DNA of 24,938 nucleotides, from positions 1 through 24,938 of the forward strand of contig MNYV01000135.1 in NCBI GenBank assembly GCA_001873285.1. The letters are read 5' to 3'. The stretch comes from Nitrospirae bacterium CG2_30_53_67. Lineage in GTDB: Bacteria; CG2-30-53-67. The translations under genes and the position numbers were made by a program. Below are positions 169 through 22,221 of the stretch, piece by piece. The notes beneath the pieces are model-generated. The model did not search any database. It saw nothing but the letters and a program-made list of their open reading frames with translations, and was not told where the DNA came from. Position 1 is the first letter of the stretch, and each line of letters begins with the position of its first letter.

Positions 169-537
169 TCACTCAGGACTCTGAAACACCTTGGAAATCG
201 TCTGCTTGATACTGGGGAGATTCAAGGGCTTGTCGAAAAACCCTAAAACCCCGAGTTCTTCAGCCCTTTGCCGAGCTTCCTGGGTCCCCCATGCGCTGAT
301 CATGAGAACCTTGGTATCCGGATATTGTTTTCTTATCTCTTCGAGCACATCGAGCCCGCTGATTCCGGGAAGACGGAGATCCAGGATCACGGCATGGGCC
401 GGGTCTTCGCGCATCCCTTCCAGGGCCTGCTCCCCGGAGTTGAAACAAATCACATCATATCCATCCTTGGTAAAGGTCTTGGAGAGGGTCCAGCAGATCA
501 GTTTCTCGTCATCCACGACCATAAGTTTTTTTTTCAA
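169..537 (-). CDS. Stand-alone receiver-domain response regulator (CheY-like)
   Basis: About 122 residues make one phosphoacceptor receiver domain with no output domain. Visible are the acidic pair D9-D10 (VVDDEKLI), the phosphoacceptor D53 in LDLRLPG, the switch Ser81 (MISAW) and Lys103 in FDKPL. The frame also extends upstream to a TTG at 630, but residues before the second TTG at 537 do not look like a receiver, and the 630 start would overlap the chaperone gene. I therefore prefer TTG 537, which has GGGGGAAG about ten bases upstream. The sequence after the first strand (WTLSKTFTKDGYDV) is NtrC-receiver-like. It is the last gene of the molybdoenzyme cluster, so it may relay a signal from a kinase such as the one at 11318-12781. 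Which kinase it serves is inference. Confidence 0.85.
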   Translation of the reverse strand: MKKKLMVVDDEKLICWTLSKTFTKDGYDVICFNSGEQALEGMREDPAHAVILDLRLPGISGLDVLEEIRKQYPDTKVLMISAWGTQEARQRAEELGVLGFFDKPLNLPSIKQTISKVFQSPE

Positions 538-607
538 TGAATGGCTTCCCCCAAAATCATTTGAGAAACAATGACGATATCCATGCAAAGTCACGGACGC
601 CTGCCTG

Positions 608-1288
608 TTAAGAACCGGCAGGAACCTCAATGGATTCCAGTGTCTCCATCTCCATTCCCAGAAAAGCCTCTGTGAGCAGAGACATACCCGTCATAAAATC
701 ATTTTTTGTACGGGACCGGGCCATGGCGCACAACTCCGGGATCCACCGGATCATGTGATTCCGGATAAAGGCCTTCTCGAGGCAAAGGAGTTCCATGGCG
801 TTGTCAGTGTTATTTGCCTTCCACGCCTTTGTCTCTCTCTCACATAAAAAGTGCATGAAGGAGAACTCCAGACCGATAAAATCCGGAAGGTCTTTATAGT
901 CCTTATCCATTTCAGCGCCTGCCTTGTGATATTCGTCCTTCACACTGATCGTATACGGTCCCTGAAGGAGTCCAAGAACCTCTTGCCCGCCTTCTATGCT
1001 TCTTCCGCGATAGACATTCTCATAGGGGGTGAGATACCTTCCTGAAGGAACGATGAAGAGATGGGTATACTCCTGTTTGAGCGCATCAAAGTCCCATGCC
1101 CCGCCGGAGAGAAACCTCTGAAAAGGCGCCGTGACTTCCGGGCCGAAGATCTCTTCAAGGTTCCCGATAAAATCATCACTCAGGAACGTTTCAACCTGTT
1201 CTCTGGTAACGGCGCCGAGGTAGAACTCCGCCAGGAACCTGTAGAGTTCACACCTCGGGCCCGCCAGATCTTTGAGCGCTTCTCTCAT
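608..1288 (-). CDS. TorD/DmsD-family molybdoenzyme chaperone
   Basis: The 226-aa all-helical protein has the TorD-family pattern: EYTHLFIVPSG, then PYENVYRG, and later PDFIGLEFSFMHFLCERE. The family binds the Tat leader and apo-form of a DMSO-reductase-family enzyme in the cytoplasm and holds it back from export until the molybdenum cofactor is inserted. Length is typical (about 200-230 aa). The ATG overlaps the stop of the ferredoxin gene by four bases (ATGA), which implies translational coupling. The obvious client is the Tat-signal molybdoenzyme at 1869-4949. No signal peptide is present, as expected for a cytoplasmic chaperone. The gene family is clear, but the exact member is not, so no symbol is given. 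Confidence 0.9.
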   Translation of the reverse strand: MREALKDLAGPRCELYRFLAEFYLGAVTREQVETFLSDDFIGNLEEIFGPEVTAPFQRFLSGGAWDFDALKQEYTHLFIVPSGRYLTPYENVYRGRSIEGGQEVLGLLQGPYTISVKDEYHKAGAEMDKDYKDLPDFIGLEFSFMHFLCERETKAWKANNTDNAMELLCLEKAFIRNHMIRWIPELCAMARSRTKNDFMTGMSLLTEAFLGMEMETLESIEVPAGS

Positions 1289-1857
1289 TTGGCCGTGAAC
1301 TTTATACTGGGATTGGTATGGCCCGAGTTGTTGAACCCGGCCGGCGCATTCTGACCGGACTCGCTTGCACTGAACGAGTCAACCTTGGTCAAGGTCCTTC
1401 CCAGACAGGTACTCACGCAGGCAGGCGGGAGCCCTGCATCAATCCGATGGACACAGAAGGTGCACTTTTCCACCTTCTTGGTGGCGCTGTTGTACTGGGG
1501 CGCACCGTAGGGGCAGGCAAAGATGCAGTACTTGCACCCCACACACTTGTCCTGGTCAATGAGCACGATCCCGTCCGAGTCCCTCTTGGAGATCGCCCCC
1601 ACCGGACAGGATTTCAAACAGGCCGGATCCGCACAGTGGTTGCAGGACATGCTCACAAAATCCACGCTTACATCTGGATAGCTCCCCGACTCACGGGTGA
1701 AGACCCAGCGGTAGCTCACATGTTCGGGAATTCCGCCCTGGCTCACCGGCATGGGTGACTGCAGGGGCGCCGTCCGGTTTTCGGCCTTGCAGGCAATGGC
1801 GCAGCTCCCGCACCCCGTGCACTTTCCTAAATCTATGCTCCATCCAAGTTGAGACAT
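1285..1857 (-). CDS. DmsB-like 4x[4Fe-4S] ferredoxin, electron-transfer subunit
   Basis: The 190-aa protein carries four cysteine clusters in the order of DmsB/PsrB/NrfC subunits: CTGCGSCAIAC near the N-terminus, CADPACLKSCP, CVGCKYCIFACPYG and CTFCVH with a following CVSTC. This implies four [4Fe-4S] clusters passing electrons to the catalytic subunit. There is no signal peptide, so in this family it would be exported as a complex by the Tat leader of the catalytic subunit. The Shine-Dalgarno (TAAGGAGGTGTAAA before ATG) is near perfect. It lies 11 bp after the catalytic gene and overlaps the chaperone gene. No membrane-anchor subunit (DmsC/NrfD) follows it, so the complex must exchange electrons some other way, most simply through the neighbouring cytochromes. 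Confidence 0.92.
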   Translation of the reverse strand: MSQLGWSIDLGKCTGCGSCAIACKAENRTAPLQSPMPVSQGGIPEHVSYRWVFTRESGSYPDVSVDFVSMSCNHCADPACLKSCPVGAISKRDSDGIVLIDQDKCVGCKYCIFACPYGAPQYNSATKKVEKCTFCVHRIDAGLPPACVSTCLGRTLTKVDSFSASESGQNAPAGFNNSGHTNPSIKFTAK

Positions 1858-1868
1858 TTTACACCTCC

Positions 1869-4800
1869 TTATGAAACCTTGGTTATTTTCACATACGTAT
1901 TAAAGTAGCAGACGCTCCCGCCGATCTTCTCCTGTAGGGGGACATTGGTGTAAACCTTGTCCAGCCGGGAGATCGGGTTGGTCTGTATCCCAGCGCCTCG
2001 CGTGGTATCGTGACCCAGGGCATCTGCCACGCCGTCCACGATGTGGGGTTTGGAGCCGAGCTGCCAGTGACCATAATGGTGCGAGACCCCGACCACACCA
2101 GGGCGGATCCGGTTCGTCACCCAGACCTTGCCGGTCACGCCGGCGCTGTTTGATGCCGAGGTCAGCCTGATCGTGTCCCCGGTCTCCACGCCGAGGGCCG
2201 CAGCATCAGAGGCGTTGATCCAGACGGCGTTCTCAGGCATGACCAGCATGAGCCACGGATTGACCGCAGTCCTGGCCTGTCCGTGGTTCACCAGCTTATA
2301 GGTATTGAGCAGGTAGGGGTAACTTCCCTTATCGTCGTGCACCGAGGTCCCGTCCGAATGCATCAGGTCCTCATAGTGCGGCACGCCGGAATAGTACGTG
2401 CCCGTCACCGAATCCGGAACTCTGACGATGGAATCCAGATAAAAGCGGATGGAGTTGGCATACTTGCTTGTGAGGTGGGCAGTCCCGCTCCCCAGGGGGC
2501 CGGCGCCGTACTCGGTATCCAGGGCCTTGAACACGCCTCCTTTGGCAATGATCTCATCCACGGTCAGGGTGGGATAATCACTGAGCGCGCTGTTCCGGAT
2601 GTTCCGGAGCATGGCATAGGCATAGTCCCAGACGTTGTTGAGATTGTCTCCATTGGTATAGGCGCTGTTCCCCACGGCCTTGATGAGCTTGCTCGCGCCG
2701 TCCACGGTGAAGCTCTTGCTCCCGTCATAGCCCAGGGCCTTGGCCAGCCCGATGTGGATATCCACCACGGCCTTGGTGTTGGGAAGGACCGGCGTATAAT
2801 CGTTGGCGCTTCCGGTCGGGATGGTGGCCCCGATCTCGGCGCCACCGATATCCTTGCCGTCGAACTTGCCCACCACGGGTCGTTGGAAGGACGTTCCCCC
2901 CTGCACCATCCAGGGGATGCCCGGCGTCGAAAACTTCTCCAGATAGGTGGAATCCGGGAGCACGTAGTCGGCCATGGCCGGCACTTCGCCCATGACCGGG
3001 CTGATGGAGACCAGCAACGGAAGCTTGTCGTAGTTGTCGGCCCCGCCGGAAAGGATAGTCCGCTCAAATGTAGCCTGAAGGCCGGGCGTGGAATAGGGCC
3101 AGGCGTTCCAGTAGGTAATCAGGACCTTCATACCGTAGGGGTACTGATCCTCAACGCTCGGAATCACCTCCTGATAGTTGCCATGGAGCCAGAAGGGCCC
3201 CCACATCCGGGTTGCCGGGTAGGTCCCGGTAAAAAGATCTGCCACATCCACGGCATCGTAGAACTTCCCCTTCCGGTCAATACCGATGCTGGAAGAGTAC
3301 GGAGAGTTGGTGACCGTCTCCACGGCCACAACCCCGGTTTTCTCGCCATAACTTGCGCCTCCCTTGGTGCATCCCCCGCGCCAGTCGTAATTGCCGATCA
3401 GGGAGTTCAGATGCTGGATGCAGACCTGGTTGAAAAGACCGTTGGTGTGCTTCACGGCCCCCCGGTAGGTGATGGCCACGGCCTTTTTCCCATGGCTCGT
3501 GAACTCCGTGGCCAGTTCAATGACGTCGGCCTCGGTCAGGCCGCAGATGCCCGCCCATTCGGCCAGGGTCTTGCTCATGGCCTGTGCCTTGAATAATGTG
3601 AAGGCGGACTTGACCGCAATCCCGTTGACCGTGGTATCCACTTCCAGGTCCCCCTCCACCACCGTGGAAGAATTTCCGGCAAACTCGTCCGTAGTTGCGG
3701 TGGAACCCGGGACGGTTGTGGCCGTGCCGCTCACCAGGACCACGTTCTCATGAGCGCCGCCGCCGAGGCCGGCCTCGCTTGCATTCAGATAGGTAGCGGG
3801 GCTCGAGCCGTACTTGACCAGGTAGGTCGCGTCGCTCCAGGTCCATTCATTGTCCGCATTGGCCGCGCCCTTGGTGGCATTTCCAAGATAGGTGGTGTCG
3901 TGAGCGCTGTTCTCGATGATCCATCTGGCCATGCCCAGGGCCAGGGCTGCGTCCTGCCCGGGCTTGATGGGATACCACTTGTCGGCCTGGGCCGCCGAGT
4001 TGGACATGCGGGGATCCACGACCACATATTTGGCCCCGCTGTTTCTTTTGGCCTCCACAAGTTTGCGGCCGTAGGGATTCATGGGGAAGCCGGCCTCAAA
4101 GGGATTGGTGCCGAAGAGAATAATGAATTCCGCTTCCCGAGTGTCCGGCTGCCAGCCTTCGGTCCTGCCCGATCCATACCTGTTCTTGCCTCCGCTCGAC
4201 TTGTACTGCCACGTGATGACCTCGTTTCCGACGTGCCGGGTCGCCTCGCAGATGCTCGTGTGGGTAAGGTCGTAGTTGACCGTGCCCCACCCCGACTTCC
4301 AGATCCTCGAGCTCAGGGTTTTTTCAGTGCTCCTGCCCGGGCAGAAGCCCAGCATGTTCGCGTTTTTCCCCTTCTTGGTGTTGCTGGGATCCATGTAGTC
4401 ATAGCGAGTGGCCGCCGGGATCAGGGCATCAATCTTGGCCGCAATCTCGGAGAAGGCCGTATCCCAGGAGATGGCCTCCCACTCCCCTGCTCCTCTCTCG
4501 GTCCCCGGTTTTCTCCGCAACGGCTGTTTAATCCGGTAGGGATCGTACACGGTCTGAATCCCGGACTGTCCCTTGAGGCAAAGCCGTCCGGGTGTCACGT
4601 CCGCGGTTGAGGTGGCGGTGGTGTAGTCAAGCCTTTCATCGGGTTCCAGGTTGTTCGGATGATAGGGATTGCCGTCGATCTTGAGCAGGACCCCGTCCTT
4701 GACCCGTGCCTGGATGCCGCATCGGGAATGGCACATCTGACAGACGCTCCGAATCACATAGACGCCGGAATCGTATTCCGTGGCATTCGGGTCATTCTGT

Positions 4801-4949
4801 CCGTAGGTCGCGGCCAGGGCTTCATTTTGTTTGAAGAGGCTCGATCCAACCGCGGCGCCTGCGGCCAGTGCGGCGCCGGCCTTGATAAATTTTCTTCGTT
4901 CAATGGATGGATTGAGCCATCCTTTGAGTTGATCGGTCTTGCTCGCCAT
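1869..4949 (-). CDS. Tat-exported molybdopterin oxidoreductase catalytic subunit (Cys-ligand type)
   Basis: The 1026-aa protein starts with a Tat leader (ERRKFIKAG at residues 17-25, then an Ala/Gly-rich hydrophobic stretch). An N-terminal [4Fe-4S] site is C70-x2-C73-x3-C77 and C124 (GRLCLKGQ). The likely molybdenum ligand is Cys234 in HTSICEATRHVGNEV. Cys is typical of the PhsA/PsrA/TtrA/ArrA/SrdA branch, whereas DMSO and TMAO reductases use Ser. FILFGTNPFEAG and VVDPRMSNSA are cofactor-domain signatures. The C-terminal domain ends with GVVGVSHHYGHW-type sequence. About 1020 residues also suits the TtrA/ArrA-like branch. A Gly/Thr/Ala-rich stretch at roughly 385-445 looks like an added surface loop. 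The RBS is AAAGGAG. The substrate cannot be read from sequence; tetrathionate, thiosulfate, selenate and arsenate are candidates. Confidence 0.9.
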   Translation of the reverse strand: MASKTDQLKGWLNPSIERRKFIKAGAALAAGAAVGSSLFKQNEALAATYGQNDPNATEYDSGVYVIRSVCQMCHSRCGIQARVKDGVLLKIDGNPYHPNNLEPDERLDYTTATSTADVTPGRLCLKGQSGIQTVYDPYRIKQPLRRKPGTERGAGEWEAISWDTAFSEIAAKIDALIPAATRYDYMDPSNTKKGKNANMLGFCPGRSTEKTLSSRIWKSGWGTVNYDLTHTSICEATRHVGNEVITWQYKSSGGKNRYGSGRTEGWQPDTREAEFIILFGTNPFEAGFPMNPYGRKLVEAKRNSGAKYVVVDPRMSNSAAQADKWYPIKPGQDAALALGMARWIIENSAHDTTYLGNATKGAANADNEWTWSDATYLVKYGSSPATYLNASEAGLGGGAHENVVLVSGTATTVPGSTATTDEFAGNSSTVVEGDLEVDTTVNGIAVKSAFTLFKAQAMSKTLAEWAGICGLTEADVIELATEFTSHGKKAVAITYRGAVKHTNGLFNQVCIQHLNSLIGNYDWRGGCTKGGASYGEKTGVVAVETVTNSPYSSSIGIDRKGKFYDAVDVADLFTGTYPATRMWGPFWLHGNYQEVIPSVEDQYPYGMKVLITYWNAWPYSTPGLQATFERTILSGGADNYDKLPLLVSISPVMGEVPAMADYVLPDSTYLEKFSTPGIPWMVQGGTSFQRPVVGKFDGKDIGGAEIGATIPTGSANDYTPVLPNTKAVVDIHIGLAKALGYDGSKSFTVDGASKLIKAVGNSAYTNGDNLNNVWDYAYAMLRNIRNSALSDYPTLTVDEIIAKGGVFKALDTEYGAGPLGSGTAHLTSKYANSIRFYLDSIVRVPDSVTGTYYSGVPHYEDLMHSDGTSVHDDKGSYPYLLNTYKLVNHGQARTAVNPWLMLVMPENAVWINASDAAALGVETGDTIRLTSASNSAGVTGKVWVTNRIRPGVVGVSHHYGHWQLGSKPHIVDGVADALGHDTTRGAGIQTNPISRLDKVYTNVPLQEKIGGSVCYFNTYVKITKVS

Positions 4950-4989
4950 AGGATTCTCCTTTCATTACGATAGCTGTAGGATTAAATTT

Positions 4990-5481
4990 TTATTGTGCGT
5001 AAAATTCAATGTCCGTGCCCGAACCATGGCATAACAGGCATTTGGATGTGCTGTACTTCTGGCGAAGCTGACCATTACCCCCGCTGCTCTGATATCCGGC
5101 CTGTATGGACGTCTCCAGAACAATATGTTCGTGGCACCAGACACACTTGGCATTCGTGGTGCTGCCCGAGGCCCAGGGCATCATGGCCGCATGCGCGTCG
5201 GCCCGTCCGTCCGTGGCGGTTCCCGAAGACTTGTTCCCGTGGCAGCTCACGCAGTCGCTGTTGTAGGAAGCGCTGCCGCTGTCGTGCACCGCAACCAGAT
5301 TGGTGGAGAGGGCATCGGCAAGATTCTGATCAATAGCCGCCTGGTCAGATGGGCTGACCGCACTCCCCGTGGCCGGGGCGCTGCCGCCTCCTCCGCCGCC
5401 CCCGGAACACCCTGCAAGGGCCAGCATGACAGTAACACTCGTGCAAAACATGAATCGTGAAACCTGTTTCTTCACTTGCAT
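4990..5481 (-). CDS. Trihaem c-type cytochrome lipoprotein
   Basis: The 163-aa protein has a lipoprotein signal: a charged start (MQVKKQ), a hydrophobic stretch and a lipobox LALAGC with Cys25. A flexible run of glycines follows. The residues after Cys25 are Ser-Gly, not Asp, so retention in the inner membrane is not signalled and an outer-membrane location is likely. Three CXXCH sites follow (CVSCH, CVWCH, CLLCH), each binding one c-type haem. The ORF matches no family I can name. Sitting between the porin gene and the catalytic gene, it could be the surface wire from the porin-cytochrome conduit to the molybdoenzyme. That role is inference. The RBS is AGAAAGGAGCC, and the spacing to neighbours (25 bp and 40 bp) fits an operon. 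Confidence 0.85.
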   Translation of the reverse strand: MQVKKQVSRFMFCTSVTVMLALAGCSGGGGGGGSAPATGSAVSPSDQAAIDQNLADALSTNLVAVHDSGSASYNSDCVSCHGNKSSGTATDGRADAHAAMMPWASGSTTNAKCVWCHEHIVLETSIQAGYQSSGGNGQLRQKYSTSKCLLCHGSGTDIEFYAQ

Positions 5482-5506
5482 AATCGGCTCCTTTCTGCTT
5501 AAAAAG

Positions 5507-7618
5507 CTAAAACTTTAATTTATAAGTCAGGCTGACCGTCTCATTGCGTCCGCCCTGGCCGGATTCAATATCGTCATCATAGTCCTCATGCAGGTATCCC
5601 AGTGTCACATCCGAGCGGTCCGAAACGATCAGATTGAGCCCCAGGTTCACATTCTGATACTGGTTGTCGATCTTGGTCAAGGCGCCCAGATCGGTGGTTC
5701 CTGACTGGATTCTGCTCCGTGAATTTGAAAGTAGAAAGGAAATTAGAAGGTTGGCCTTGGGATTCAACTGATAGCTTGCGCCGAGGGTATAGGTATCACT
5801 GTAACTCTGAAATCCGAGGGCATCCTCCTGCATCACAAAGGTATTCAATGCCGACCAGCGGGTCTTGTCTGAAAGAAGCCAGTTGGCATCTTGAAGGAGC
5901 GCATCCCGCATATAAGCGGCAAAAAGATTCAGGTCATCTCTGACCTGCCACCACCCGTCAAGACTGATGCTGCGGTGACGCGACTCCCAGTCCTGGTCCA
6001 CGGAGTTGGACGCGTTCTTGTCGAGATTCGTGCCGGCGGTGCCGAACCAGGTGAAGTTGTCATTCTTCTGCTTCCCTTCGGTGTAGGAAGCGGAGACAGC
6101 GGCCCGGCCTTTGAGCAGGGAGTAGTCGGCCATGATCCGGCCGTTCCAGGACTTGTCCGGCTCCAGGATCAGGGCCGTATCACCCGCATCTTCATAGGAT
6201 GCAGAAGCCGTGATCAGAAGATCGGAGTAGAGACGGCTGTAGAGGCTCGCCGAATAGATCCATCGGTCCGAATCAATACTGTACGGGCTGGAAAAAGATG
6301 CGATGGCTGCACTGCCGGTCGGTCTCTGAAACTCCCGATCCGTCTGGTCCCTGCGGCCTGAAAGGCGGACCACCGTGTTGTAACGGTCCATACGGTAGGT
6401 CGCGTCGCCGCCGTATTTCCTGCTGGTGATCTCGGCCACGTGCGGGTCGCTGACATTGGAGTCCAGGTCCTTGTATCCGGAAGTCCCCGCCTGCGAGCTG
6501 TTCTCCCGCTGGTTGTAATGGTAAAATCCTGTAAGATCCGTATTCCGTATCCCGGTATAGGTGGCGGATGCAAGGAGTGTGGTCAACTTGATCTCCCCGT
6601 TGTAACCGGCGGCGTCTTGCAGGGCATTGTAGGATTCCTGGTCCAGGTCCGCATAACGGATGCCGAACCGGTAGGAAAGCGAGTCATTCAGGCGGTCCAC
6701 AAGATCCAGAGAGTAGGCATCCTTCTCCGATTCGGGGACAAAATCAATGGACTTGGCCGATGACACCATATTGGAATCGAGGGCCGCCGCATCGGCTAAG
6801 GTGTAGAGGTCATCGGTCTGGAAATTTTCCCTCTGGGCATTGAGAAAAACCCTGAGGTCGTCTTCCCTGACCGGGCCGATATTGAGCTCGGTCCCGATAT
6901 TCACAACCCGGCTGTCAAAGGGTTCGGCGCGGCCCCGCCATCGGGAAGAGATACCGGACGCCGAAACATCGCTCCCATCCAGAATATAGGTCAGGAACTT
7001 CCGGCCCCGCTTGTCCTCGTTGTTGACCCAGACATTCACGGAATTGAGAAGACCCCCCTCGGTCCCTCCCCAGACACTGGAATTCAGCATCATGGAAAGA
7101 TCGGTCTTGCTCCGCTCCACAAAAAACTCGGATGTGGAAGCGTCATTGTTGAACTGAGCCGTGTAGTTGCTCCCCGCAAGACCTGTGGTGATCGGGGCAT
7201 ACTCATCCATGTTCTTTCGGTAGCGCATGTAATCGAGATCAATCTTTACCCCTTCCGCCGGATCCACGGCCAGGAGCATCCGGTCATTTTTGAGCCAGGG
7301 GGCAAAGCGCTGGAGATGGAAGGAAGGATATTCGGCTCCGTTTTTCCGGATCATGAGATCAAGGTTCGGGACATTGAGCCGGTTGTATTTTTCTTCTTCG
7401 GGATAATACTGGTAACGGCTCAGGAAACCGGACGTGCTCGTATCCCCGTTCCGGTCATAGTACTGATCGTCCACCGTGACACTCCCCTGAGCTTCGTACT
7501 TACCGATGTCCGCTGCATAAACAGGGATAGAGAAGAGTCTCATGACAAAAAGCAGGACCAAGGCCCTCCGGGTTCCACTCATCAAGCGATTCATCCATTG
7601 ATTCCATTCCTTGTTCAT
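5507..7618 (-). CDS. MtrB/PioB (DmsF)-type outer-membrane beta-barrel porin
   Basis: The 703-aa protein has an N-terminal signal peptide (RRALVLLFVMRLFSIPVYA, cleaved near residue 35). Alternating-residue strands with many Tyr/Asp/Arg/Ser turns follow, and it ends in VSLTYKLKF with a terminal Phe, the usual barrel-assembly signal. Size and pattern match the MtrB/PioB family (MtrB of Shewanella is about 700 aa), which sheathes a decahaem cytochrome across the outer membrane. No cysteine occurs anywhere in the translation, so the N-terminal CXXC of Shewanella MtrB is missing. The gene follows the decahaem gene after a 186-bp gap. The translation start has GGGGG about seven bases upstream. It is the DmsF counterpart in a dmsEFAB-type order, but no symbol is assigned because orthology is not tested. 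Confidence 0.9.
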   Translation of the reverse strand: MNKEWNQWMNRLMSGTRRALVLLFVMRLFSIPVYAADIGKYEAQGSVTVDDQYYDRNGDTSTSGFLSRYQYYPEEEKYNRLNVPNLDLMIRKNGAEYPSFHLQRFAPWLKNDRMLLAVDPAEGVKIDLDYMRYRKNMDEYAPITTGLAGSNYTAQFNNDASTSEFFVERSKTDLSMMLNSSVWGGTEGGLLNSVNVWVNNEDKRGRKFLTYILDGSDVSASGISSRWRGRAEPFDSRVVNIGTELNIGPVREDDLRVFLNAQRENFQTDDLYTLADAAALDSNMVSSAKSIDFVPESEKDAYSLDLVDRLNDSLSYRFGIRYADLDQESYNALQDAAGYNGEIKLTTLLASATYTGIRNTDLTGFYHYNQRENSSQAGTSGYKDLDSNVSDPHVAEITSRKYGGDATYRMDRYNTVVRLSGRRDQTDREFQRPTGSAAIASFSSPYSIDSDRWIYSASLYSRLYSDLLITASASYEDAGDTALILEPDKSWNGRIMADYSLLKGRAAVSASYTEGKQKNDNFTWFGTAGTNLDKNASNSVDQDWESRHRSISLDGWWQVRDDLNLFAAYMRDALLQDANWLLSDKTRWSALNTFVMQEDALGFQSYSDTYTLGASYQLNPKANLLISFLLSNSRSRIQSGTTDLGALTKIDNQYQNVNLGLNLIVSDRSDVTLGYLHEDYDDDIESGQGGRNETVSLTYKLKF

Positions 7619-7804
7619 CTATGAACCCCCTTTCTTGAAATCGAGAGTATATTTAATAAAGGTTCTTCTCCCATTTAGTGGGTAAAAAGGGTTACGCGAA
7701 TAGGACCCTCGGCCCCTTATGTTTTGAGCACTTCACTTGACCCCTGGAATCCTTGACCCCTTGACCCCTGATGTTTTCACCCACTCTTTTGAGATGATCC
7801 ATAA
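7619..7804 (-). repeat. Intergenic gap with three CTTGACCCC repeats
   Basis: The 186-bp gap between the decahaem gene and the porin gene holds three copies of CTTGACCCC on the plus strand, at 7736-7744, 7752-7760 and 7760-7768; the last two share one base. They read GGGGTCAAG on the coding strand. A short CCCATTTAGTGGG sequence at about 7670 can form a 4-bp stem. I see no ORF with an RBS here. The gap could act as an attenuator, processing site or internal promoter between cytochrome and porin, but no element is convincing enough to name. Confidence 0.5.
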
Positions 7805-8692
7805 TTAATACCTCAGATGCCGGTCCTGATGCGTCCCGTGCTGGGCGCCGTGGCACCCCGTGCATTTCCTGTAGATGGATGCCGCAGGCGTGGCCGCGCC
7901 CGTAGCCGAAGTCCCGTGCTTGGCGGCGGCGAGACTGTGGCAGCGTATACAGGCAAAAGGTTCCGCCACTTTCAAAAGACCCGGATTCACGGTCCCGTGC
8001 GGATTGTGGCAGATGGTGCAGTCCTCGGTGACCGGCGCATGTTCATAGGTCCATGGGCCCTGCTGTTCCTGGTGACAGCCTCCGCACCGTTCGCTCATCC
8101 CGACCAAGGCCAAGGCCTTATCTTCATGGGGATTGTGGCAGTCGGTGCAGGCCATGACCCCTTCCCTCATGGGATGATGATAAGGCATGTTCATCTGGGC
8201 CTTCTTTTCCGTATGGCAGGTCACGCATTTTTCGGTGATGCGGGAATTCCGGAGCCGGTCGCTCTTGACCAGCGCCGGGTCGTCTCCGTGCGGTGCATGG
8301 CAGTCAAAACAGGCGAGCCCCGCCTTCTTATGGCTGCTCGTGTGCCATCCGGTCAGCTTGCTGTTTTGTTTCTGATGGCAGGAGAGGCAGATCTCCGGCG
8401 ACGGGAAGGAGATGGTCTCCCTTCCGGGATTTTCCACATGCCTGCTCCCGAGTCCGTGGCAGCCTTCACAATTCTGATGGGAGGCAAGCGTCTTCATCTT
8501 CTCATGGCACGAAGCGCACTGTTCCGCACCCACGGCCGAGGCCCCCTCCACCTGGTTCCACACGGTCCTCGCCATGGGTTTGTCCGCGGACATGGCCGGC
8601 CTTTCAAGCGTGAATTGAACGGCCAGCACAAAAAACAGGATCAATAAAATATCCAGAAGGAGAATAAAGACATACCCGCTGCTTTTTTTCAT
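7805..8692 (-). CDS. DmsE/MtrA-type decahaem c-type cytochrome
   Basis: The 295-aa protein has ten CXXCH motifs in order: CASCH, CEGCH, CLSCH, CFDCH, CVTCH, CTDCH, CGGCH, CTICH, CIRCH and CTGCH. Regularly spaced extra His residues (SHQN, SRH, SSHK, YHHP, YEHAP) can supply distal haem ligands. The CxxCHNPHG and CxxCHGAQHGTH context is typical of DmsE/MtrA decahaem proteins, which sit inside an MtrB-like barrel and carry electrons through the outer membrane. The N-terminus (YVFILLLDILLILFFVLAV) is a signal sequence or an uncleaved anchor. The RBS is GGGGGG before ATG. It starts the structural gene run after the long regulatory gap and is about the family length (300-330 aa). Confidence 0.93.
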   Translation of the reverse strand: MKKSSGYVFILLLDILLILFFVLAVQFTLERPAMSADKPMARTVWNQVEGASAVGAEQCASCHEKMKTLASHQNCEGCHGLGSRHVENPGRETISFPSPEICLSCHQKQNSKLTGWHTSSHKKAGLACFDCHAPHGDDPALVKSDRLRNSRITEKCVTCHTEKKAQMNMPYHHPMREGVMACTDCHNPHEDKALALVGMSERCGGCHQEQQGPWTYEHAPVTEDCTICHNPHGTVNPGLLKVAEPFACIRCHSLAAAKHGTSATGAATPAASIYRKCTGCHGAQHGTHQDRHLRY

Positions 8693-9090
8693 TTCGCCCC
8701 CCTTATCTTGAATGACTGAACATGGATCGCATACCGGGAAATGTTTTGAAACTTTTGAAAATCTTTTTATTTACAGTTTATATGGACCGACTTTTAAGAT
8801 GAAACAGATCGGAAAATTACCTGATGAATTGCTTTGTGATCCGCTTCTCAGGTTCAGACCGCGAACAAAACGCAATAACATCATCGTTGGACAGTGCAGA
8901 TTTCATGCCAAAACAGCCTGCTCTGATTTTTTAGGAAAACTTTAGAAAGGAATCAACAACTTGAGAGAAGAAGACTTATAGCGCACTGACGATATGACAT
9001 TGAAAAATGTACAGTTTGTATACAGAAGGCCGCCCTGTTCCTGTAAAGTTTATGCGCATTGAACGGCCTATGTATGTATATATCCTTTGC
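8693..9090 (-). promoter_or_regulatory. 398-bp regulatory gap upstream of the decahaem operon
   Basis: This is the only gap over 300 bp in the window. It is AT-rich compared with its neighbours and has no ORF with a convincing RBS. It contains the sigma-54-like motif listed separately and an inverted repeat ACATT-gaaa-AATGT at 8997-9010. A second dyad is formed by GGCCG (about 9029) and CGGCC (about 9063) around an ATGCGCAT palindrome (9052-9059). These upstream dyads are placed where an NtrC-type activator would bind, roughly 100-170 bp before the motif. Binding by the regulator at 9905-11305 is inference. Confidence 0.5.
8895..8910 (-). promoter_or_regulatory. Candidate sigma-54 promoter (-24/-12)
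   Basis: Read on the minus strand the site is TGGCATG-AAAT-CTGCA. It keeps the invariant GG-N10-GC core and differs from TGGCACG-N4-TTGCA at two positions. It points toward the decahaem gene and would give a leader of about 190 nt. A sigma-54-dependent activator gene is encoded just upstream, which makes the site more credible than its sequence alone. Confidence 0.5.
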
Positions 9091-9891
9091 CTATTTCCCT
9101 TGTTTTTCCTGGGAGATATTCTTGAGTTCGCCATTGATGACCTCCTGGTCCGCAAGACGCTTAGCTTTCTTGGCCGATTCATAGGACTCGTCCACCAGTT
9201 TCAGTATTTCATGAAAATCAAAGGAGTGCCATTTGATTTCTGCGAGCCTAAACTTCTCCTCTGCATCCTTAAGCGCTGCGGCCGCGTCAGTCACGGGATA
9301 CCCTTTTTTCCTGGCAAGGGTGACAAACTCTCCGCTCCATTTGACCGTGTTCTTGGCATAGAAGATCAGGTCGAGTGTGGCGTGGGCCTCCTCCGGCACG
9401 CTGGAAGAAAGGCCGCTCTTCGTGTTGTGACAACGGCGGCAGGCGTCGGCCACGTTTTCCGGGGAGAGGATGGCGGTATGCATGGAGCCGTGGCAGGTGA
9501 TGCAGGTCGGCCCGGGCACTTCTACGTTACCGGATAGGAGGGCCTTGTAATGCCTGCTCCGGGTAAATTCCTTCCACTGCGGCTGATGGCATTCGCCGCA
9601 GAGACCGGGTATGTTGGAGCCATGGACCCGGCTTCTCGGATCGGCCGGGCGCAATACGCCGGCATGGGCCTTATCGAGTCGGATATCAGCCGGGTTCCCT
9701 CCATGACAACGGTCGCAGGTCACACCGGCCTTGTCGTGCACCGAGTCCTTCCAGTTATAAAAAGCCTTACCTTCGACTTTGTTCTGCGGCAGGGTCGCGT
9801 GGCAAGCGATGCAGGAATTCCCCTCTGCGGATGCCGGCAGAATCAGGCAGATACAAAACAGCATCTCGGAAAATGAACGTAATGTGGACAT
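9091..9891 (-). CDS. Periplasmic pentahaem c-type cytochrome with helical C-terminal domain
   Basis: The start is ATG 9891, chosen because AAAGGAGGCGGC lies directly before it and a signal peptide (residues 1-22, ending PASA) follows; the frame also extends 10 codons upstream. In 266 aa there are five CXXCH motifs, all in the first two thirds: CIACH, CDRCH, CGECH, CITCH and CRRCH. The remaining 100 residues lack Cys, are rich in Lys/Glu/Ala and look helical, resembling the helical tail of other multihaem cytochromes that pack against a partner. It could accept electrons from the quinol pool or a donor cytochrome and feed the decahaem conduit. It is joined to the regulator gene with a 13-bp gap, so it is co-transcribed with the sensing genes, not with the reductase genes. 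Confidence 0.85.
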   Translation of the reverse strand: MSTLRSFSEMLFCICLILPASAEGNSCIACHATLPQNKVEGKAFYNWKDSVHDKAGVTCDRCHGGNPADIRLDKAHAGVLRPADPRSRVHGSNIPGLCGECHQPQWKEFTRSRHYKALLSGNVEVPGPTCITCHGSMHTAILSPENVADACRRCHNTKSGLSSSVPEEAHATLDLIFYAKNTVKWSGEFVTLARKKGYPVTDAAAALKDAEEKFRLAEIKWHSFDFHEILKLVDESYESAKKAKRLADQEVINGELKNISQEKQGK

Positions 9892-9904: not shown

Positions 9905-11305
9905 TCAGATCTCGAAATCACTGATCTTCTTCCTGAGCGTGGTCCTCGTGATCCCGAGAAGTTTGGCCGCCTGAACCTGATTCCCTTGTGAGATCTCCAT
10001 GGCCTTCCGGATCAGAATCTTTTCCACGTTCCCGATGATGGTTTCATAAGGCGCCCGTGAGCAATCCATGCAGCGATTGAGGGCATTCTCGACCATGAAG
10101 GAGAACCCCTTGAGGAAATCCCCTTCCCCATGGATATGCATGGGGATCTCTTCCTTGAAGAGGTCCAGGGAGAGGTAGTCGTATTTGCACATGACCATGG
10201 CCTTCTTCATGGTGTTCTCCAGCTCGCGGACGTTTCCGGGCCAGTCGTAGCTCTGCAGATACTCGACCAGTCCGGTCTCAAACCCCTGAATCCTGAGGCC
10301 GAGGGCGGCATTAAACCGCTGAATGAAATATTCCAGAAAAGCCGGCATATCATCCCTATGGTCTCGAAGCGGAGGGACACGAACGGCCACCACGTTCAGC
10401 CGGTGAAACAAGTCCTGCCGGAACCGGCCCTCCTTTATATGTTTCTCCAGATGCTTGTTGGTCGCGGCCAGGATCCGCGCGTCCGAATGAAGGGTCTCTG
10501 TGCCGCCCAGCCGCTGAAAGCTTCCATCCTGCAGCACGCGCAGAACCTTGGACTGGGTGGCAAGTGACATGTCTCCGATCTCATCAAGAAAAAGAGTCCC
10601 CCCTGCGGCCTGCTCAAACTTCCCCGGTTTTCCCGTGCTGTCTGCGCCGGTGAATGTGCCTTTCTCATATCCGAAGAGTTCACTCTCCAGCAGGTTCTCC
10701 GGAATTGCTGCACAGTTCACAGCCACGAAAGGCCTCTCCGTGCGGAGACTGTACCGGTGCAGGGTCCTCGCGATCAGGTCCTTGCCGGTCCCGGACTCTC
10801 CAAGGATCAGGACGGTGATATCGGACTTGGCCACTTGTCCGATGAGTTTATAGATCTCCACCATCAAGGAGCTGTTTCCGATAAGCCGCTCTTCTGTAAG
10901 CCGGTCATCCTCGGAGACCCGCTCGATCCCGGAGCTTTTCATCAGGCGGCCGGCCTTGAGCGCCCGCTCGATAACCTGGCGCACGGCGGCGATGTCCAGG
11001 GGCTTGGTGAGATAGTCAAAGGCCCCGGCCTCAATGGATAAAATGGCCTTGTCCGTGTCGCCGAAGGCCGTAATCAGGACCACGGGAAGATCCGGCTTGA
11101 ATTCCCTGATCTGTTTCAGGGTCTCCAGGCCGTCCATGCCCGGCAGTTTCAGATCCAGGAGGATCAGATCCGGGGCCGAGTCCCGGACCCTCTCCACGGC
11201 CTGCTCTCCATCCTCGGCCGTGAAGATCTCATACTCCCTGAAAAAGATCTTTTTCAGAAAGTGCCTGACACCCGGCTCATCATCAACAATCAGTATCCTA
11301 TCCAT
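9905..11305 (-). CDS. Sigma-54-dependent NtrC-family response regulator
   Basis: The 466-aa protein has the standard three parts. The receiver has D8-D9 and phosphoacceptor D51 in LDLKLPG. The AAA+ sigma-54 interaction domain has Walker A GESGTGKD near residue 170, Walker B GGTLFLDEIGD near 235 and an arginine-finger region FRQDLFHRL near 298. The C-terminal Fis-type helix-turn-helix is QVQAAKLLGITRTTLRKKI. The L1 loop that contacts sigma-54 reads GTFTGA, not GAFTGA. ATG 11305 is preferred to the GTG two codons earlier. The gene follows the kinase gene by about 12 bp, so the two form a two-component system. The sigma-54-like site at 8895-8910 is its probable target. Confidence 0.93.
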   Translation of the reverse strand: MDRILIVDDEPGVRHFLKKIFFREYEIFTAEDGEQAVERVRDSAPDLILLDLKLPGMDGLETLKQIREFKPDLPVVLITAFGDTDKAILSIEAGAFDYLTKPLDIAAVRQVIERALKAGRLMKSSGIERVSEDDRLTEERLIGNSSLMVEIYKLIGQVAKSDITVLILGESGTGKDLIARTLHRYSLRTERPFVAVNCAAIPENLLESELFGYEKGTFTGADSTGKPGKFEQAAGGTLFLDEIGDMSLATQSKVLRVLQDGSFQRLGGTETLHSDARILAATNKHLEKHIKEGRFRQDLFHRLNVVAVRVPPLRDHRDDMPAFLEYFIQRFNAALGLRIQGFETGLVEYLQSYDWPGNVRELENTMKKAMVMCKYDYLSLDLFKEEIPMHIHGEGDFLKGFSFMVENALNRCMDCSRAPYETIIGNVEKILIRKAMEISQGNQVQAAKLLGITRTTLRKKISDFEI

Positions 11306-11317
11306 AGTCACTCATCG

Positions 11318-12781
11318 TTAAACCGGAAGTAGAATGGAGAAGATCGTCCCCTTCTCCTTTTTGTCCTTGAGCGAAATCTCTCCCCCGTGTTCCTGAATGA
11401 TTTGATACACGATGGATAACCCCAGCCCCGTGCCCTTCTTCCGGGTGGTATAAAAGGGCTCAAAAAGATGTTCCCGAATCGTTTCATCTATGCCCTCTCC
11501 GGTATCCTCGATATCAATCTCCACATCCTCCTCGGAACCGTTTATCGAGGTCCGAATTCGGATCTCCCCGCCATCGGGCATGGCCTGAATGGCATTCAGG
11601 CAGAGATTCCCCACGGCTTCCTCCATCTTCCGCCGATCCACAAAGACCAGGGGAAGGTCTACAGCCGGGAAAAATTTCAGGCGGATACGGGCCGTCTCCA
11701 TCCTGGGGCGGTATTTGCCTGTCACCTCTTCGAGGAATGCGTTGATGTCCACGGGACTGAGATGGATCCTGGGAGGGGCCGCATAGACAAGGAAACGGCT
11801 GATGATCTCATCCATTCTCTGAACATCGTTCAATACCATTTCCCGTTCCTCCATGTCCAGCACGCCGGACGAACCGGGCTCATTCATGGCCTGGATGCAG
11901 AGTTTGATGGAGGTAAGGGGGTTCTTCAGCTCATGGGCCAGGTTGGCCGAAAATTTTCCTATGGCGTTTAGTTTCTCGCTCCGGATCAGTTTCTCCTGTG
12001 TCCGTTGCACCCGTTCAAAGGCCTCCTTGAGTTTTACGGACATTTCGTTGAAGGTCCCGGCCAGTTCGGCGGTCTCGTCCCGGCCCTTCACCTGGATCTG
12101 AGTCCCCCATTTCCCCTTTCCGATATTCTTCGCGCCCCGGATCACATGCAGGAGAGGAAGGATGTACCGCCGGGTCATCAAGAGGCTGACCAGGACCCCC
12201 AGCATAGTCAAAAAGGCCGCCATCCCCCATAACTCTCTTTTAAGGGACCGAACCTGCTTGAGATGGTACGCCCGGGTGATCCCGATCCGCACGTATCCGA
12301 CCTGCATGGTGTTGACCACGATCGGGGTGATGACCTCAAAAATGATCGAGGTCTTCGGGAGGATCAGCGCTTCTTTGCCCGACCAATCAAATCCTGACGG
12401 ATCTTCAAGCTCTTTCCGGTATAGATCCTTGCCCACAAAGGCCAGGAGTTTTTCTTCACGGCCGTAAACGGCGGCATATTCCACAATGCCCTCCTCGGAT
12501 TCCGGCGCCTTCTCTTCTTTTTTTATTTTAAAGACATCGAGGAGCCTGTAGAGGGCGAACAGATCCTCGTAGAGGAGGGGCTCCACGGCCTGGTGCGAGA
12601 GAGCCCTGGCAAGATAGACGCCGCGTTTTCTAAGCTCCGCCTCGGATTCCTTCTCGATATGATTGAAAAAAAATAAACTCAGAACGAAGATCAGGAAAAG
12701 AATCAGGAGGATGCTGGTCACCGACACCTTGAAGGCGAGACTTAAGTACCATCGTGTTTTGAAACGCGCAACTGATTCCAT
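11318..12781 (-). CDS. Membrane sensor histidine kinase (HAMP-HisKA-HATPase)
   Basis: The 487-aa protein has transmembrane helices at about 18-40 and 184-204 enclosing a periplasmic sensor domain of about 145 residues. HAMP follows (about 205-258), then HisKA with phospho-accepting His283 in LAHELKNPLTS. The HATPase domain has an N-box NLCLNAIQA (392-400), G1 DTGEG and G2 GTGLGLSI. All catalytic motifs are intact. The periplasmic domain matches no named sensor fold that I can assign by eye. It is the middle gene of a binding protein-kinase-regulator trio with tiny gaps, which suggests that the PhnD-like protein docks on this periplasmic domain, as AioX is known to do with AioS. Confidence 0.93.
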   Translation of the reverse strand: MESVARFKTRWYLSLAFKVSVTSILLILFLIFVLSLFFFNHIEKESEAELRKRGVYLARALSHQAVEPLLYEDLFALYRLLDVFKIKKEEKAPESEEGIVEYAAVYGREEKLLAFVGKDLYRKELEDPSGFDWSGKEALILPKTSIIFEVITPIVVNTMQVGYVRIGITRAYHLKQVRSLKRELWGMAAFLTMLGVLVSLLMTRRYILPLLHVIRGAKNIGKGKWGTQIQVKGRDETAELAGTFNEMSVKLKEAFERVQRTQEKLIRSEKLNAIGKFSANLAHELKNPLTSIKLCIQAMNEPGSSGVLDMEEREMVLNDVQRMDEIISRFLVYAAPPRIHLSPVDINAFLEEVTGKYRPRMETARIRLKFFPAVDLPLVFVDRRKMEEAVGNLCLNAIQAMPDGGEIRIRTSINGSEEDVEIDIEDTGEGIDETIREHLFEPFYTTRKKGTGLGLSIVYQIIQEHGGEISLKDKKEKGTIFSILLPV

Positions 12782-12792: not shown

Positions 12793-13713
12793 TCACCTGT
12801 CCGGCAGCCATGATGTCTTCCTGGAGGCCTTTAGAAAATTTTCCATCTCCCGGACCGAATCATAGAGACCAGCGGAAGGCTCCACAAACCGGTCTATCTT
12901 GAGATTTTTCAAGATCTTCTTCCCTTCGGGATCCTGGTCCATGCCGAACAGGATCGCCTGAAACCTCTCCCTGAACGGCTTGGCGGTCTTTGGAGAGACC
13001 ACCACCGGCGGCATGCCGAAAGGCTGGGAGGAAAGAATCACACGCGTCTTCTCCACGCTAAGGTCATTTCTCTCCTTGAGAGAGTCGTAAACCAGGCTGT
13101 CCACGGCCGCCCCGTCCGCGATCCCACGCGCCACGGCTTCAATGGATTTGTCATGACTATGGGTGTAAAAAAAATAAGAGAAAAACTGCTCCGGTATGGC
13201 CCCCTCTTTGCGGATCAGATATTCAGGGTAGAGGGCGCCGGTATTGGAGAGATCATCGGTATAGGCGAAGATCCTCCCCCTAAGATCATCGAAGGTCTTG
13301 ATGGGGCTCTCTTTGGCAACGATGATATAGGATTGATAGGTATCCTTTCCATAAATAATGGGGATAGCCGCCACAGGGAGCTTGAAATTCTGTTCCGCTC
13401 GGAGGTAGGCTCCCGTACAGATAAAGGCGTAGTCCACGGCGCCCAACTCAAGAAGATCGTTCACCTCCTGATAGGTCCGTCTCTGTTTCAGGACGACCCG
13501 TTGACCGAACTTCTTGGATAGATAGTCCAGGAAATCCTGATAATAGGAAAACGTCTTCTCCGGGGAAATCATAGCCGAGATGGCAAAACTGATTTCCTGC
13601 TTCTCATCCCCGATCGGAGTCGAGGACAAGCTTTTTTCCTCACCCGCCCACCCCGGAGGAGCAATCAGGAATAAAAAAAACACAAGACAGACGGCCCAAA
13701 GATACTGCTTCAT
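12793..13713 (-). CDS. PhnD-type periplasmic binding protein, likely sensor accessory
   Basis: Starting at ATG 13713 (MKQYLWAVCLVFFLF) the protein has a clean signal peptide ending near PPGWA and about 306 residues. The frame continues 34 codons upstream, but that part has no signal character. The core matches the phosphate/phosphonate-binding PhnD family: ISAMISPEKTFSYYQDFLDYLSKKFG, then VDYAFICTGAYL, PIKTFDDLRGRIFAYTD and GIADGAAVDSLVYD. No ABC permease or ATPase is encoded nearby. Followed directly by a kinase and a regulator, it resembles AioX/ArxX, the oxyanion-binding protein that triggers a two-component system. Ligand and partnership are inference. The candidate ligand is the oxyanion reduced by the respiratory complex. 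Confidence 0.87.
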   Translation of the reverse strand: MKQYLWAVCLVFFLFLIAPPGWAGEEKSLSSTPIGDEKQEISFAISAMISPEKTFSYYQDFLDYLSKKFGQRVVLKQRRTYQEVNDLLELGAVDYAFICTGAYLRAEQNFKLPVAAIPIIYGKDTYQSYIIVAKESPIKTFDDLRGRIFAYTDDLSNTGALYPEYLIRKEGAIPEQFFSYFFYTHSHDKSIEAVARGIADGAAVDSLVYDSLKERNDLSVEKTRVILSSQPFGMPPVVVSPKTAKPFRERFQAILFGMDQDPEGKKILKNLKIDRFVEPSAGLYDSVREMENFLKASRKTSWLPDR

Positions 13714-13823: not shown

Positions 13824-14762
13824 TCAGGCAAAAAACTGCCGGATGTACCCCTGTGCCACAAAAAGCGTTGCGGCCCCGATCAGCCCCTTGATGAACCTGT
13901 CGGGCATATGCTTCTGTAGCCGCGCCCCCAGGTACATCCCGGCCAGACCGCCCGCGCCGAAAAGCGCGCCGAGGAGCCAGTCCGGCGAGGTGGAGAGACC
14001 CTGAGGCCCCGGGAGGATACTGTAAAAGCCGACCCCGGCAATGGAGGAGAGGAACGTTCCCATGAGTGACGCGCCCGCCACGGTATAGACCGGCAGGTGG
14101 AAAACTGCGACGCAGAAGGGGGCGATGATGGCCCCGCCGCCCACGCCGTAGGTCCCGCCGATGATCCCGACCACAAAGGCGAGAAGAAACATGGCCTGTG
14201 TCCCGAAGGAATATCTTCTTCCCTGAAATTCATATTCGGTCTTTTTCCAGGATATGGAGATGTTGCCGACCATGGACCCGTTGAGGTTTCCATTCACTCC
14301 CATGGGATGATTCGGATTTTTTGGAGATATCCCTTTGGCAATTACCTGATAGAGAAGCCTGACGGCCAGATACAAAAGGACACATCCCACAAAGAACTTG
14401 AAACCTCTCGGGTCCGGGAGGAAATAAACCCGGAGGTAATACCCGATGACAATCCCCGGAAGCGTCCCTAAGATAATTGTCCAGGTCAGCGGCCAGACCA
14501 TGCGCCCCTCTTTGATATACCGGTAGACACCGCTGGGGATGGCCACAATGTTGAAGACGAAATTGGTGGCGCTCACGGCCGGACTGACAAAATGCAGAAC
14601 ACTCATCTGGAAAGGGAGAATCAGAAATGCCCCGGAAACCCCGCCCATGGAAGCAAAGAAGGAGATGACAAAAGCCACTGCAGGAGGGAGCAGAAGCGAG
14701 GTCGTGACTCCGGACACCGGAAAGTGATAGACGAAAAGATTCAGGATATTATAATCGCTCAT
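13824..14762 (-). CDS. TauE/SafE-family anion permease
   Basis: The 312-aa protein has about eight hydrophobic helices and the family's repeated Gly-rich motif: FFASMGGVSGAFLILP in the first half and GIIGGTYGVGGGAIIAPFC in the second. TauE/SafE proteins move sulfite or other small sulfur- or carbon-containing anions across the inner membrane. The ATG overlaps the stop of the STAS-like gene by 14 bp, with GGAGGGAGGATC as a good Shine-Dalgarno, so the two genes are translationally linked. Next to a respiratory oxyanion reductase and a periplasmic anion sensor, export of a sulfur product such as sulfite is plausible. This remains a hypothesis because the family is broad. Confidence 0.9.
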   Translation of the reverse strand: MSDYNILNLFVYHFPVSGVTTSLLLPPAVAFVISFFASMGGVSGAFLILPFQMSVLHFVSPAVSATNFVFNIVAIPSGVYRYIKEGRMVWPLTWTIILGTLPGIVIGYYLRVYFLPDPRGFKFFVGCVLLYLAVRLLYQVIAKGISPKNPNHPMGVNGNLNGSMVGNISISWKKTEYEFQGRRYSFGTQAMFLLAFVVGIIGGTYGVGGGAIIAPFCVAVFHLPVYTVAGASLMGTFLSSIAGVGFYSILPGPQGLSTSPDWLLGALFGAGGLAGMYLGARLQKHMPDRFIKGLIGAATLFVAQGYIRQFFA

Positions 14763-18794: not shown

Positions 18795-18843
18795 TCCAAG
18801 ACTCCTCGCTTAGTGGTCCTTTTCGTAAATCAAGATTCACGAC

Positions 18844-19692
18844 TCATTCCAAATATTTAAAGTTTAGATTAAGCTTACTCTTCTTAATCTGTAAATCGAG
18901 ACTGAATATGTTGTTGATTTCTATTCCCAATGGAGTAAGAAAAACTCTATCATAGCTTAAACTCGACTTAATCCTATCTACCAGTCCTAATTCCATGCAC
19001 CACAGGTTCGAGGCCAAGTCTATATCAGGATTAAAATTGGCAATATAGTCTTTGCCATTCTGGGTCAAAACAATCAAATCATTCCGCGCTTCTATCATTT
19101 CAAAATCCAGCGCAAGTCTCAAATAGCACCTGAAATTTGTCGTTTGGGGTGAAGTGAAATATTTTGCCAATTCTTTCGAATTAAGAATCTCTTTAGAATA
19201 ATCATAGAAAGGCTTAAGAATTTTATTGAGCCATCTTAAATAACAGATGGTATAGTTGGATGGCTTGGGCAGGGCCAAGCCGAAGCTCAGACTTAAACGA
19301 TCAACTGTAGATGTATAAAGATTCTTTACTTCATTTAAAGAATAAGTCCGAACCAATACGTCATTTGCCAATCCGAAAGAATCAATCTTCTGCCTAATGT
19401 TCTTTTCGGCCTCAATAGCGTAAATCATGCAATATTCCGTATTCTTTACAAAGTTGACGTTCTTATAATTTAAGACTTGATCGAAGCAATAATCTATTTT
19501 GGCCTTTTCTTCCAAAAGTGTTTCGAGTTCTACAATCAACTGATTTCTTTTAATATCTTCCAGGATAAAATCTATCCTACCAAAGTCGGTTGAAACCTGT
19601 TCCCCCCTCTTGACCGCTATTTTAAAATTCAGCGCATCTGAAAGATAGTCCAAATTATTCAGCAACGTCCATTGAACAAGTGACTCATTCAT
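18844..19692 (-). CDS. Type II restriction endonuclease-like protein with ELE active site
   Basis: The 282-aa protein starts at ATG 19692, which overlaps the stop of the chimeric gene (ATGA); a TTG two codons earlier is possible. Residues 38-57 read FGRIDF...VELE, a PD-(D/E)xK-like pattern with D41, E55 and E57, where the lysine is replaced by Glu as in BamHI. The C-terminal half contains a winged-helix-like segment (KELAKYFTSPQ to LTQNGKDYI). The gene is clearly AT-rich compared with the GC-rich SNF2 gene next to it, a sign of transfer. Upstream lies a broken methyltransferase, so the cognate modification enzyme is missing or is one of the two intact ones in the island. The family name is uncertain. 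Confidence 0.65.
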   Translation of the reverse strand: MNESLVQWTLLNNLDYLSDALNFKIAVKRGEQVSTDFGRIDFILEDIKRNQLIVELETLLEEKAKIDYCFDQVLNYKNVNFVKNTEYCMIYAIEAEKNIRQKIDSFGLANDVLVRTYSLNEVKNLYTSTVDRLSLSFGLALPKPSNYTICYLRWLNKILKPFYDYSKEILNSKELAKYFTSPQTTNFRCYLRLALDFEMIEARNDLIVLTQNGKDYIANFNPDIDLASNLWCMELGLVDRIKSSLSYDRVFLTPLGIEINNIFSLDLQIKKSKLNLNFKYLE

Positions 19693-20474: not shown

Positions 20475-20486
20475 CGGATATTGGTC

Positions 20487-21566: not shown

Positions 21567-21605
21567 AGTATGCCTTTCTGTTCTGTTTAAGTTCTTTCGG
21601 TATTT

Positions 21606-22113: not shown

Positions 22114-22164
22114 TCCTTTCCTTTTCCTCCGCTGCAACGCAATATGACTGTTTTGGAAAATCAA

Positions 22165-22221
22165 CTACAACCAAGTAATACGACCAGAGAATTCGGAAAC
22201 CGTTCTCCAGTCATCCATCAT
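22165..22221 (-). other. 18-codon ORF with perfect Shine-Dalgarno, in frame with the next gene
   Basis: The ORF MMDDWRTVSEFSGRITWL starts at ATG 22221, five bases after AAAGGAGG, and ends in TAG at 22165-22167. The very next codon (22164) continues an open frame into the 88-aa gene. It may be a leader peptide, the start of a gene broken by a nonsense change, or a remnant. Its size alone is not evidence of function. Confidence 0.35.

Follow-up and report, generated by a model that had tools for sequence, protein, structure and literature searches.

Cell-surface respiration of soluble acceptors by a molybdoenzyme wired to a porin-cytochrome conduit is known from the DmsEFAB systems of Shewanella and Ferrimonas, which in one survey were the only groups whose genomes held both dmsEFAB and mtrCAB (PMC9732548); the DmsAB enzyme of DmsEFAB reaches the outer face through type II secretion (PMC9048795). 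A second point of reference is the family that comprises TtrA, SrdA, and alternative ArrA, which includes enzymes for tetrathionate, selenate, and arsenate and for which a seemingly novel sister lineage has been mentioned (Wells 2023, PMC10100899). Among sensors of arsenic oxyanions, AioX and ArxX bind arsenite and ArrX binds arsenate, and seven pocket residues (Y88, C106, Y131, S161, S163, H192, and D210) have been tied to arsenite/arsenate sensing via an RpoN promoter (PMC5908839). Here we describe a locus on contig MNYV01000135.1 of Nitrospirae bacterium CG2_30_53_67 in which elements resembling all three lie side by side. We propose, with a probability of roughly 0.45, that it encodes a conduit-coupled reductase at the outer membrane that respires a soluble oxyanion, with arsenate the most likely one. 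All coordinates refer to the whole 24,938-nt window analyzed, and L-numbers denote related loci recovered by a scan of genome contigs and by genome searches.

The segment 608-9891, which a sequence-only reading had described as a dmsEFAB-like locus with 18 heme motifs and a pentaheme cytochrome just upstream, holds every gene named in that description, all on the minus strand (Table 1). Counts of genes and CXXCH motifs confirmed the total of 18 (10 in the decaheme, 5 in the pentaheme, and 3 in the triheme protein), and the proposed layout is supported by the order outward from a candidate promoter: decaheme cytochrome, barrel candidate, triheme lipoprotein, molybdoenzyme, ferredoxin, TorD chaperone, and a receiver-only regulator, the last of which also follows TorD in L030 and L031. 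The locus extends past this segment, down to 169 with the receiver protein and up to 14762 with the regulators; 5' of the decaheme gene and co-directional with it are a TauE-type permease, a binding protein, a histidine kinase, a sigma-54 regulator, and the pentaheme cytochrome (14762-9091). This gene pattern is far beyond chance.

The catalytic subunit belongs to a Cys-ligated lineage that is sister to TtrA-type enzymes and lies outside DmsA, ArrA, and canonical TtrA. Its best NCBIfam match was TtrA, with 307 bits against a cut-off of 1750, followed by PhsA (211 against 694), DmsA/YnfE (TIGR02166, 173 against 778), and ArrA (149 against 1600). A phylogenetic analysis placed it in a lineage sister to the group of reference TtrA and TtrA-like enzymes and away from ArrA, the reference TtrA and ArrA sequences being the top-scoring matches to those models, themselves under the strict cut-offs and named by similarity. 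Membership in ArrA was rejected on score and separate clade, and membership in canonical TtrA on score and on a position beside, not within, the TtrA clade; no TtrC/NrfD membrane subunit was found in the operon. Cys234 is the predicted molybdenum ligand, R206 and H230 are conserved at ArrA-like positions, and the lone CXXCH (residue 70) is part of the [4Fe-4S] Cys motif and not a heme site. An AlphaFold2 model (predicted local distance difference test [pLDDT] 84) had its best fold matches in ArrA (6cz7) and polysulfide reductase. Two catalytic subunits of the wider lineage (L013 and L063) have SIG and SIR in place of SIC and so lack the Mo-ligand Cys; they may have no activity or bind the metal through a different residue.

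The strongest pointer to the substrate lies upstream, outside the span of the sequence-only reading, where the binding protein, kinase, and sigma-54 regulator form an XSR-type module. The best PDB match of the binding protein was ArrX (6x6b, E 2.6e-49), with AioX next, and six of the seven AioX pocket residues are kept (Y88, C106, Y131, S161, H192, and D210), including the arsenic-binding Cys, while S163 is replaced by Thr. Almost every sensor encoded next to an enzyme of this lineage retains this pocket and its Cys; L098 has Gly at Cys106. Near two ArrA loci, sensor-kinase fusions (L198 and L199) have Gly at the same position, indicating that Cys106 is not universal in arsenate-linked sensors. 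Within the 398-bp pentaheme-decaheme gap is a candidate sigma-54 promoter, one of two such matches on the minus strand of the window, and similar sequences stand ahead of the structural genes in L030, L046, and L050; since the regulator has a sigma-54 activation domain, regulator type and promoter type agree. Acr3 or ArsC genes were found near the core in L047, L048, L051, L056, and L057 (NC10, Phycisphaerae, and Wallbacteria). Together, the ArrX-like sensor, its pocket, and these neighbors make an arsenic oxyanion the leading candidate for the substrate, though not a proven one.

A surface location is supported by the DmsEFAB-like order, by the triheme lipoprotein, and by the presence of the type II secretion protein GspD in this genome. 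The triheme protein has an MtrC/MtrF domain II/IV (above the Pfam cut-off of 30 bits), a lipobox with Ser at +2 (LAGC-S), and a Gly-rich tether (CSGGGGGGG); same-class triheme proteins in loci without a conduit instead have Asp-Asp after the lipid Cys (CDD). The rule that the +2 residue sorts lipoproteins comes from E. coli and may not hold in this host. The decaheme protein (295 amino acids, 20 Cys) scored 2 bits short of the DmsE cut-off of 192.2. The barrel is the least certain call and is a candidate on its position, its composition (no Cys, terminal Phe), and a 27%-identical homolog in L153 that likewise follows a decaheme gene. The pentaheme protein has strong homologs in L030 and L031 only and is restricted to this candidate class among the loci searched. 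In L041, a triheme protein (L041:759-2615) has grown to nine heme motifs through repeated single-heme cytochrome domains.

In the mechanism that we envisage, menaquinol would pass electrons to an inner-membrane NapC-like multiheme cytochrome, for which an 11-heme protein encoded elsewhere in the genome (L157) is a candidate, and thence via the periplasmic pentaheme to the decaheme inside the barrel. The triheme lipoprotein would serve as an MtrC-like adaptor to the four-cluster ferredoxin, from which electrons would reach the [4Fe-4S] cluster and the molybdenum-bis(pyranopterin guanine dinucleotide) center with Cys234. The enzyme would be exported folded through the twin-arginine translocation (Tat) system following TorD proofreading, and the type II system may carry it to the surface, as for Shewanella DmsAB. 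An AioX/ArrX-type protein would sense the oxyanion and signal through the kinase to the sigma-54 regulator, which would act at the promoter before the decaheme gene.

A number of observations weigh against this reading, first with respect to the substrate. No ars genes were found within the window itself, and the proximity of arsenic genes to the core is not significant (5 of 33 loci versus 0 of 31 controls, p = 0.053; by lineage, 3 versus 0, p = 0.24). The position that we take to be ArrA Lys198 (ArrA numbering) is His239 here. Sensors with the Cys pocket are found next to other TtrA-like branches as well (L079, L080, and L100-L113), and selectivity is not fixed by the pocket residues alone (PMC5908839). 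An ExtI-type selenite/tellurite operon porin is encoded beside a conduit locus of the second type described below (L062:15024-16115). Some of this evidence fits a conduit-coupled outer-membrane reductase for another acceptor in the TtrA/SrdA range (tetrathionate, selenate, or other S/Se oxyanions), which we regard as possible but less probable: tetrathionate, selenate, and arsenate all occur in the family (PMC10100899), TtrA is the best-scoring model and the sister group, and a TauE gene stands beside the sensor here (the association is not conserved, as no convincing case of tauE was found beside related loci). The TtrA cut-off is far from reached, however, and the TtrA reference loci L188-L192 yielded no sensor of the AioX/ArrX type.

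With respect to location, the core of triheme, molybdoenzyme, ferredoxin, and TorD genes, often with binding protein, kinase, and regulator, is constant across relatives, and the window matches this lineage in both catalytic-subunit clade and core order; but most relatives carry the core without decaheme or barrel, and they come from Gammaproteobacteria, Nitrospinota, NC10, Planctomycetota, and the candidate class to which the window itself belongs. As far as contigs reach, no such pair adjoins the core in the nearest enzyme relatives (L045, with 60% identity, L039-L044, L090, and L096) or in the same-class loci L030 and L031, which suggests that the conduit was an addition to what is in the first place a respiratory enzyme module. 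A similar triheme protein also occurs in these conduit-less relatives and is therefore no proof of a surface site; the triheme proteins of the conduit-bearing loci L062 and L067 have no lipobox, and GspD, being present in conduit-less relatives as well, does not discriminate. The barrel candidate scores far below the TIGR03509 cut-off of 240 bits, and its AlphaFold model, built from two sequences only, has a pLDDT of 27. The many cores without adjacent conduit genes would also suit a periplasmic enzyme whose decaheme and barrel exchange electrons, in either direction, with minerals or partners outside the cell; arsenite oxidation might then be linked to an external acceptor, or the reductase might draw on external electrons. 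That arsenite oxidases are governed by AioX and ArxX sensors (PMC5908839), and that the window decaheme groups with the decaheme of a proteobacterial decaheme/barrel pair whose locus lacks a molybdoenzyme, add to its appeal. We nevertheless judge it unlikely, since the sensor is nearest to ArrX, the triheme lipoprotein resembles an outer-membrane adaptor, and the genes are ordered as in DmsEFAB, whose DmsAB lies outside (PMC9048795).

The full gene order did recur in other genomes, as the sequence-only reading had proposed to search for, although most relatives have only the core. In a second, distant branch (Acidobacteria and one "Deltaproteobacteria" metagenome-assembled genome [MAG]), a decaheme/barrel pair stands at the same place, before the triheme or molybdoenzyme gene (L060, L062, L067, L088, and partly L186), indicating that the association is recurrent. 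An approximately unbiased (AU) test rejected a single clade uniting the window enzyme with those of L060, L062, L067, and L088 (p = 5e-121). No homology between the window barrel and the second-branch barrels was detected with hhalign and shallow profiles, and the decahemes of the two branches are separate, with 0 of 200 bootstrap trees grouping them and a borderline rejection of monophyly (AU p = 0.053). The simplest interpretation of these comparisons is that the conduit was probably recruited twice; one ancient acquisition followed by many losses and a replacement is the alternative. L062 also holds a second, divergent sensor-kinase pair (L062:1-1960).

Parts of the locus differ in their affinities. 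The sigma-54 regulator falls with same-class L030 and L031 in one clade (100% support), the kinase, binding protein, and pentaheme likewise have their best matches in same-class genomes, and TorD leans to the class (88%); the ferredoxin is unresolved in its tree, and grouping of the catalytic subunit with same-class genomes was rejected (AU p = 2.5e-4). With class-like regulators and an enzyme that is not, the picture is one of an older locus specific to the class, in which the enzyme came to stand beside existing parts or took their place, as the conduit probably did too. Searches of genomes from the same genus and family did not find the locus and gave only weak molybdoenzyme matches. The conduit was probably added to an enzyme core found elsewhere without one, and separately in another branch of the family. 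The combined proposition of a surface arsenate/arsenite oxidoreductase of an uncharacterized molybdoenzyme lineage, acting through porin-cytochrome conduits that the same enzyme core gained on two or more occasions with barrels of different families, is tentative.

Other relatives differ in setting. A Methanosarcinales MAG (L058) encodes a member with sensor, kinase, regulator, an NrfD-sized protein, and MoeA, its sensor pocket kept except for S163T. A betaproteobacterial side group (L100, L102, L106, L107, L109, and L111-L113) has the order molybdoenzyme, ferredoxin, Fe4S protein, TorD, and triheme; its sensors have Cys106 and Ser for D210, and a second molybdoenzyme is close by in several.

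A standard Shewanella-type DmsEFAB DMSO (dimethyl sulfoxide) reductase, which the gene order and companion subunits would suggest, is very improbable: the catalytic subunit is far below the DmsA/YnfE cut-off, has Cys and not Ser as ligand, and forms a separate lineage, by which DmsA membership is refuted and the earlier view that it is of another branch is borne out. That earlier interpretation is otherwise supported in part: the layout is dmsEFAB-like, but the order has an extra triheme gene, and conduit genes are missing beside most relatives' cores. Chance neighbors or a binning artifact, to which a short MAG contig and the differing nearest relatives of enzyme and regulators might point, can be dismissed almost entirely, as the operon contains a 25-bp repeat that, with up to 3 mismatches allowed, has 266 copies across the genome, about 80 of them exact, and none in a reversed control, which supports the assignment of the contig to this bin, the regulator, pentaheme, and kinase are nearest to same-class genomes, and the order recurs elsewhere.

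Table 1. Features of the locus in window coordinates
Feature	Position	Strand	Evidence
TauE/SafE-family permease, possible anion exporter	13824..14762	-	Pfam PF01925 134 bits
Periplasmic oxyanion-binding sensor protein, AioX/ArxX/ArrX type	12793..13713	-	Pfam Phosphonate-bd 212 bits
Membrane histidine kinase	11318..12781	-	HAMP, HisKA, HATPase_c
NtrC-type sigma-54-dependent response regulator	9905..11311	-	Sigma54_activat 233 bits, Response_reg, HTH_8
Periplasmic pentaheme cytochrome	9091..9891	-	5 CXXCH
Candidate sigma-54 promoter TGGCATGAAATCTGCA	8895..8910	-	10/12 consensus bases, GG-N10-GC
Decaheme cytochrome, DmsE/MtrA family	7805..8692	-	10 CXXCH; TIGR03508 189.9 bits
Dispersed-repeat copy GGGGTCAAGGATTCNAGGGGTCAAG, 25 bp, between decaheme and barrel genes	7736..7760	-	
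MtrB/DmsF-like outer-membrane barrel candidate, 703 aa	5507..7618	-	TIGR03509 weak, 21.5 bits
Triheme lipoprotein	4990..5481	-	3 CXXCH; PF22113 MtrC/MtrF II/IV 32.1 bits
Catalytic molybdoenzyme subunit, Tat signal, [4Fe-4S]	1869..4949	-	TtrA-sister lineage
Four-cluster ferredoxin subunit, DmsB-like	1285..1857	-	16 Cys; TIGR02951 154.7 bits
TorD-family molybdoenzyme chaperone (Nitrate_red_del/TorD)	608..1288	-	PF02613 89 bits
Receiver-only response regulator; true start possibly inside open reading frame	169..630	-	Response_reg 88 bits

Rfam and tRNA scans of the window gave no matches. A restriction-modification island occupies 16497-24364. It encodes several N6/N4 DNA methylases, an SNF2 helicase that scores like DrmD/BrxH, and, at 23624-24364, a restriction enzyme of the SfiI type.

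The locus places the conduit-molybdoenzyme architecture on an uncharacterized oxyanion-reductase lineage in uncultured phyla, where it was apparently assembled more than once. If our reading is true, evolution has put together this kind of cell-surface respiration of dissolved chemicals on more than one occasion, and the modular wiring of oxyanion enzymes to the outside becomes a testable general principle. The locus also points to genes that may take part in arsenic (or Se/S) cycling and would escape surveys built on ArrA or TtrA. The open-access literature that we searched, as distinct from subscription papers and preprints, held no description of a conduit with a TtrA-lineage enzyme.

Like this locus, the Shewanella DmsEFAB(GH) extracellular DMSO/iodate reductase combines in a single operon a decaheme, a barrel, a Tat-exported molybdoenzyme, a four-cluster ferredoxin, and a chaperone of the TorD type; the barrel that adjoins the decaheme here is assigned by position and weak homology only. 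The Shewanella system differs in its DmsA catalytic subunit, in place of the Cys-ligated TtrA-sister lineage found here, and in lacking the triheme lipoprotein between barrel and catalytic subunit, which counts against a simple equation of the two; sigma-54/XSR regulation and a far-off host set the present locus further apart. The TtrA/SrdA/alternative ArrA family (PMC10100899) is the nearest known lineage and has the same Cys ligand and Tat export, whereas here there is no NrfD/TtrC membrane subunit, electron supply would be heme based, and the TtrA equivalog cut-off is missed. With AioXSR, ArxXSR, and ArrXSR the locus has in common a binding protein, kinase, sigma-54 regulator, and conserved arsenic pocket, yet S163 is Thr and the module is attached to a different enzyme family. 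The MtrCAB, MtoAB, and PioAB conduits likewise combine decaheme and barrel, and the MtrC/MtrF-type triheme domain adds to the likeness, but the barrel here is far below the TIGR03509 cut-off and the terminal partner is a molybdoenzyme. As far as its anatomy tells, the locus would work like DmsEFAB, yet by the scores and trees obtained here it is not a member of DmsEFAB, TtrA, or ArrA.

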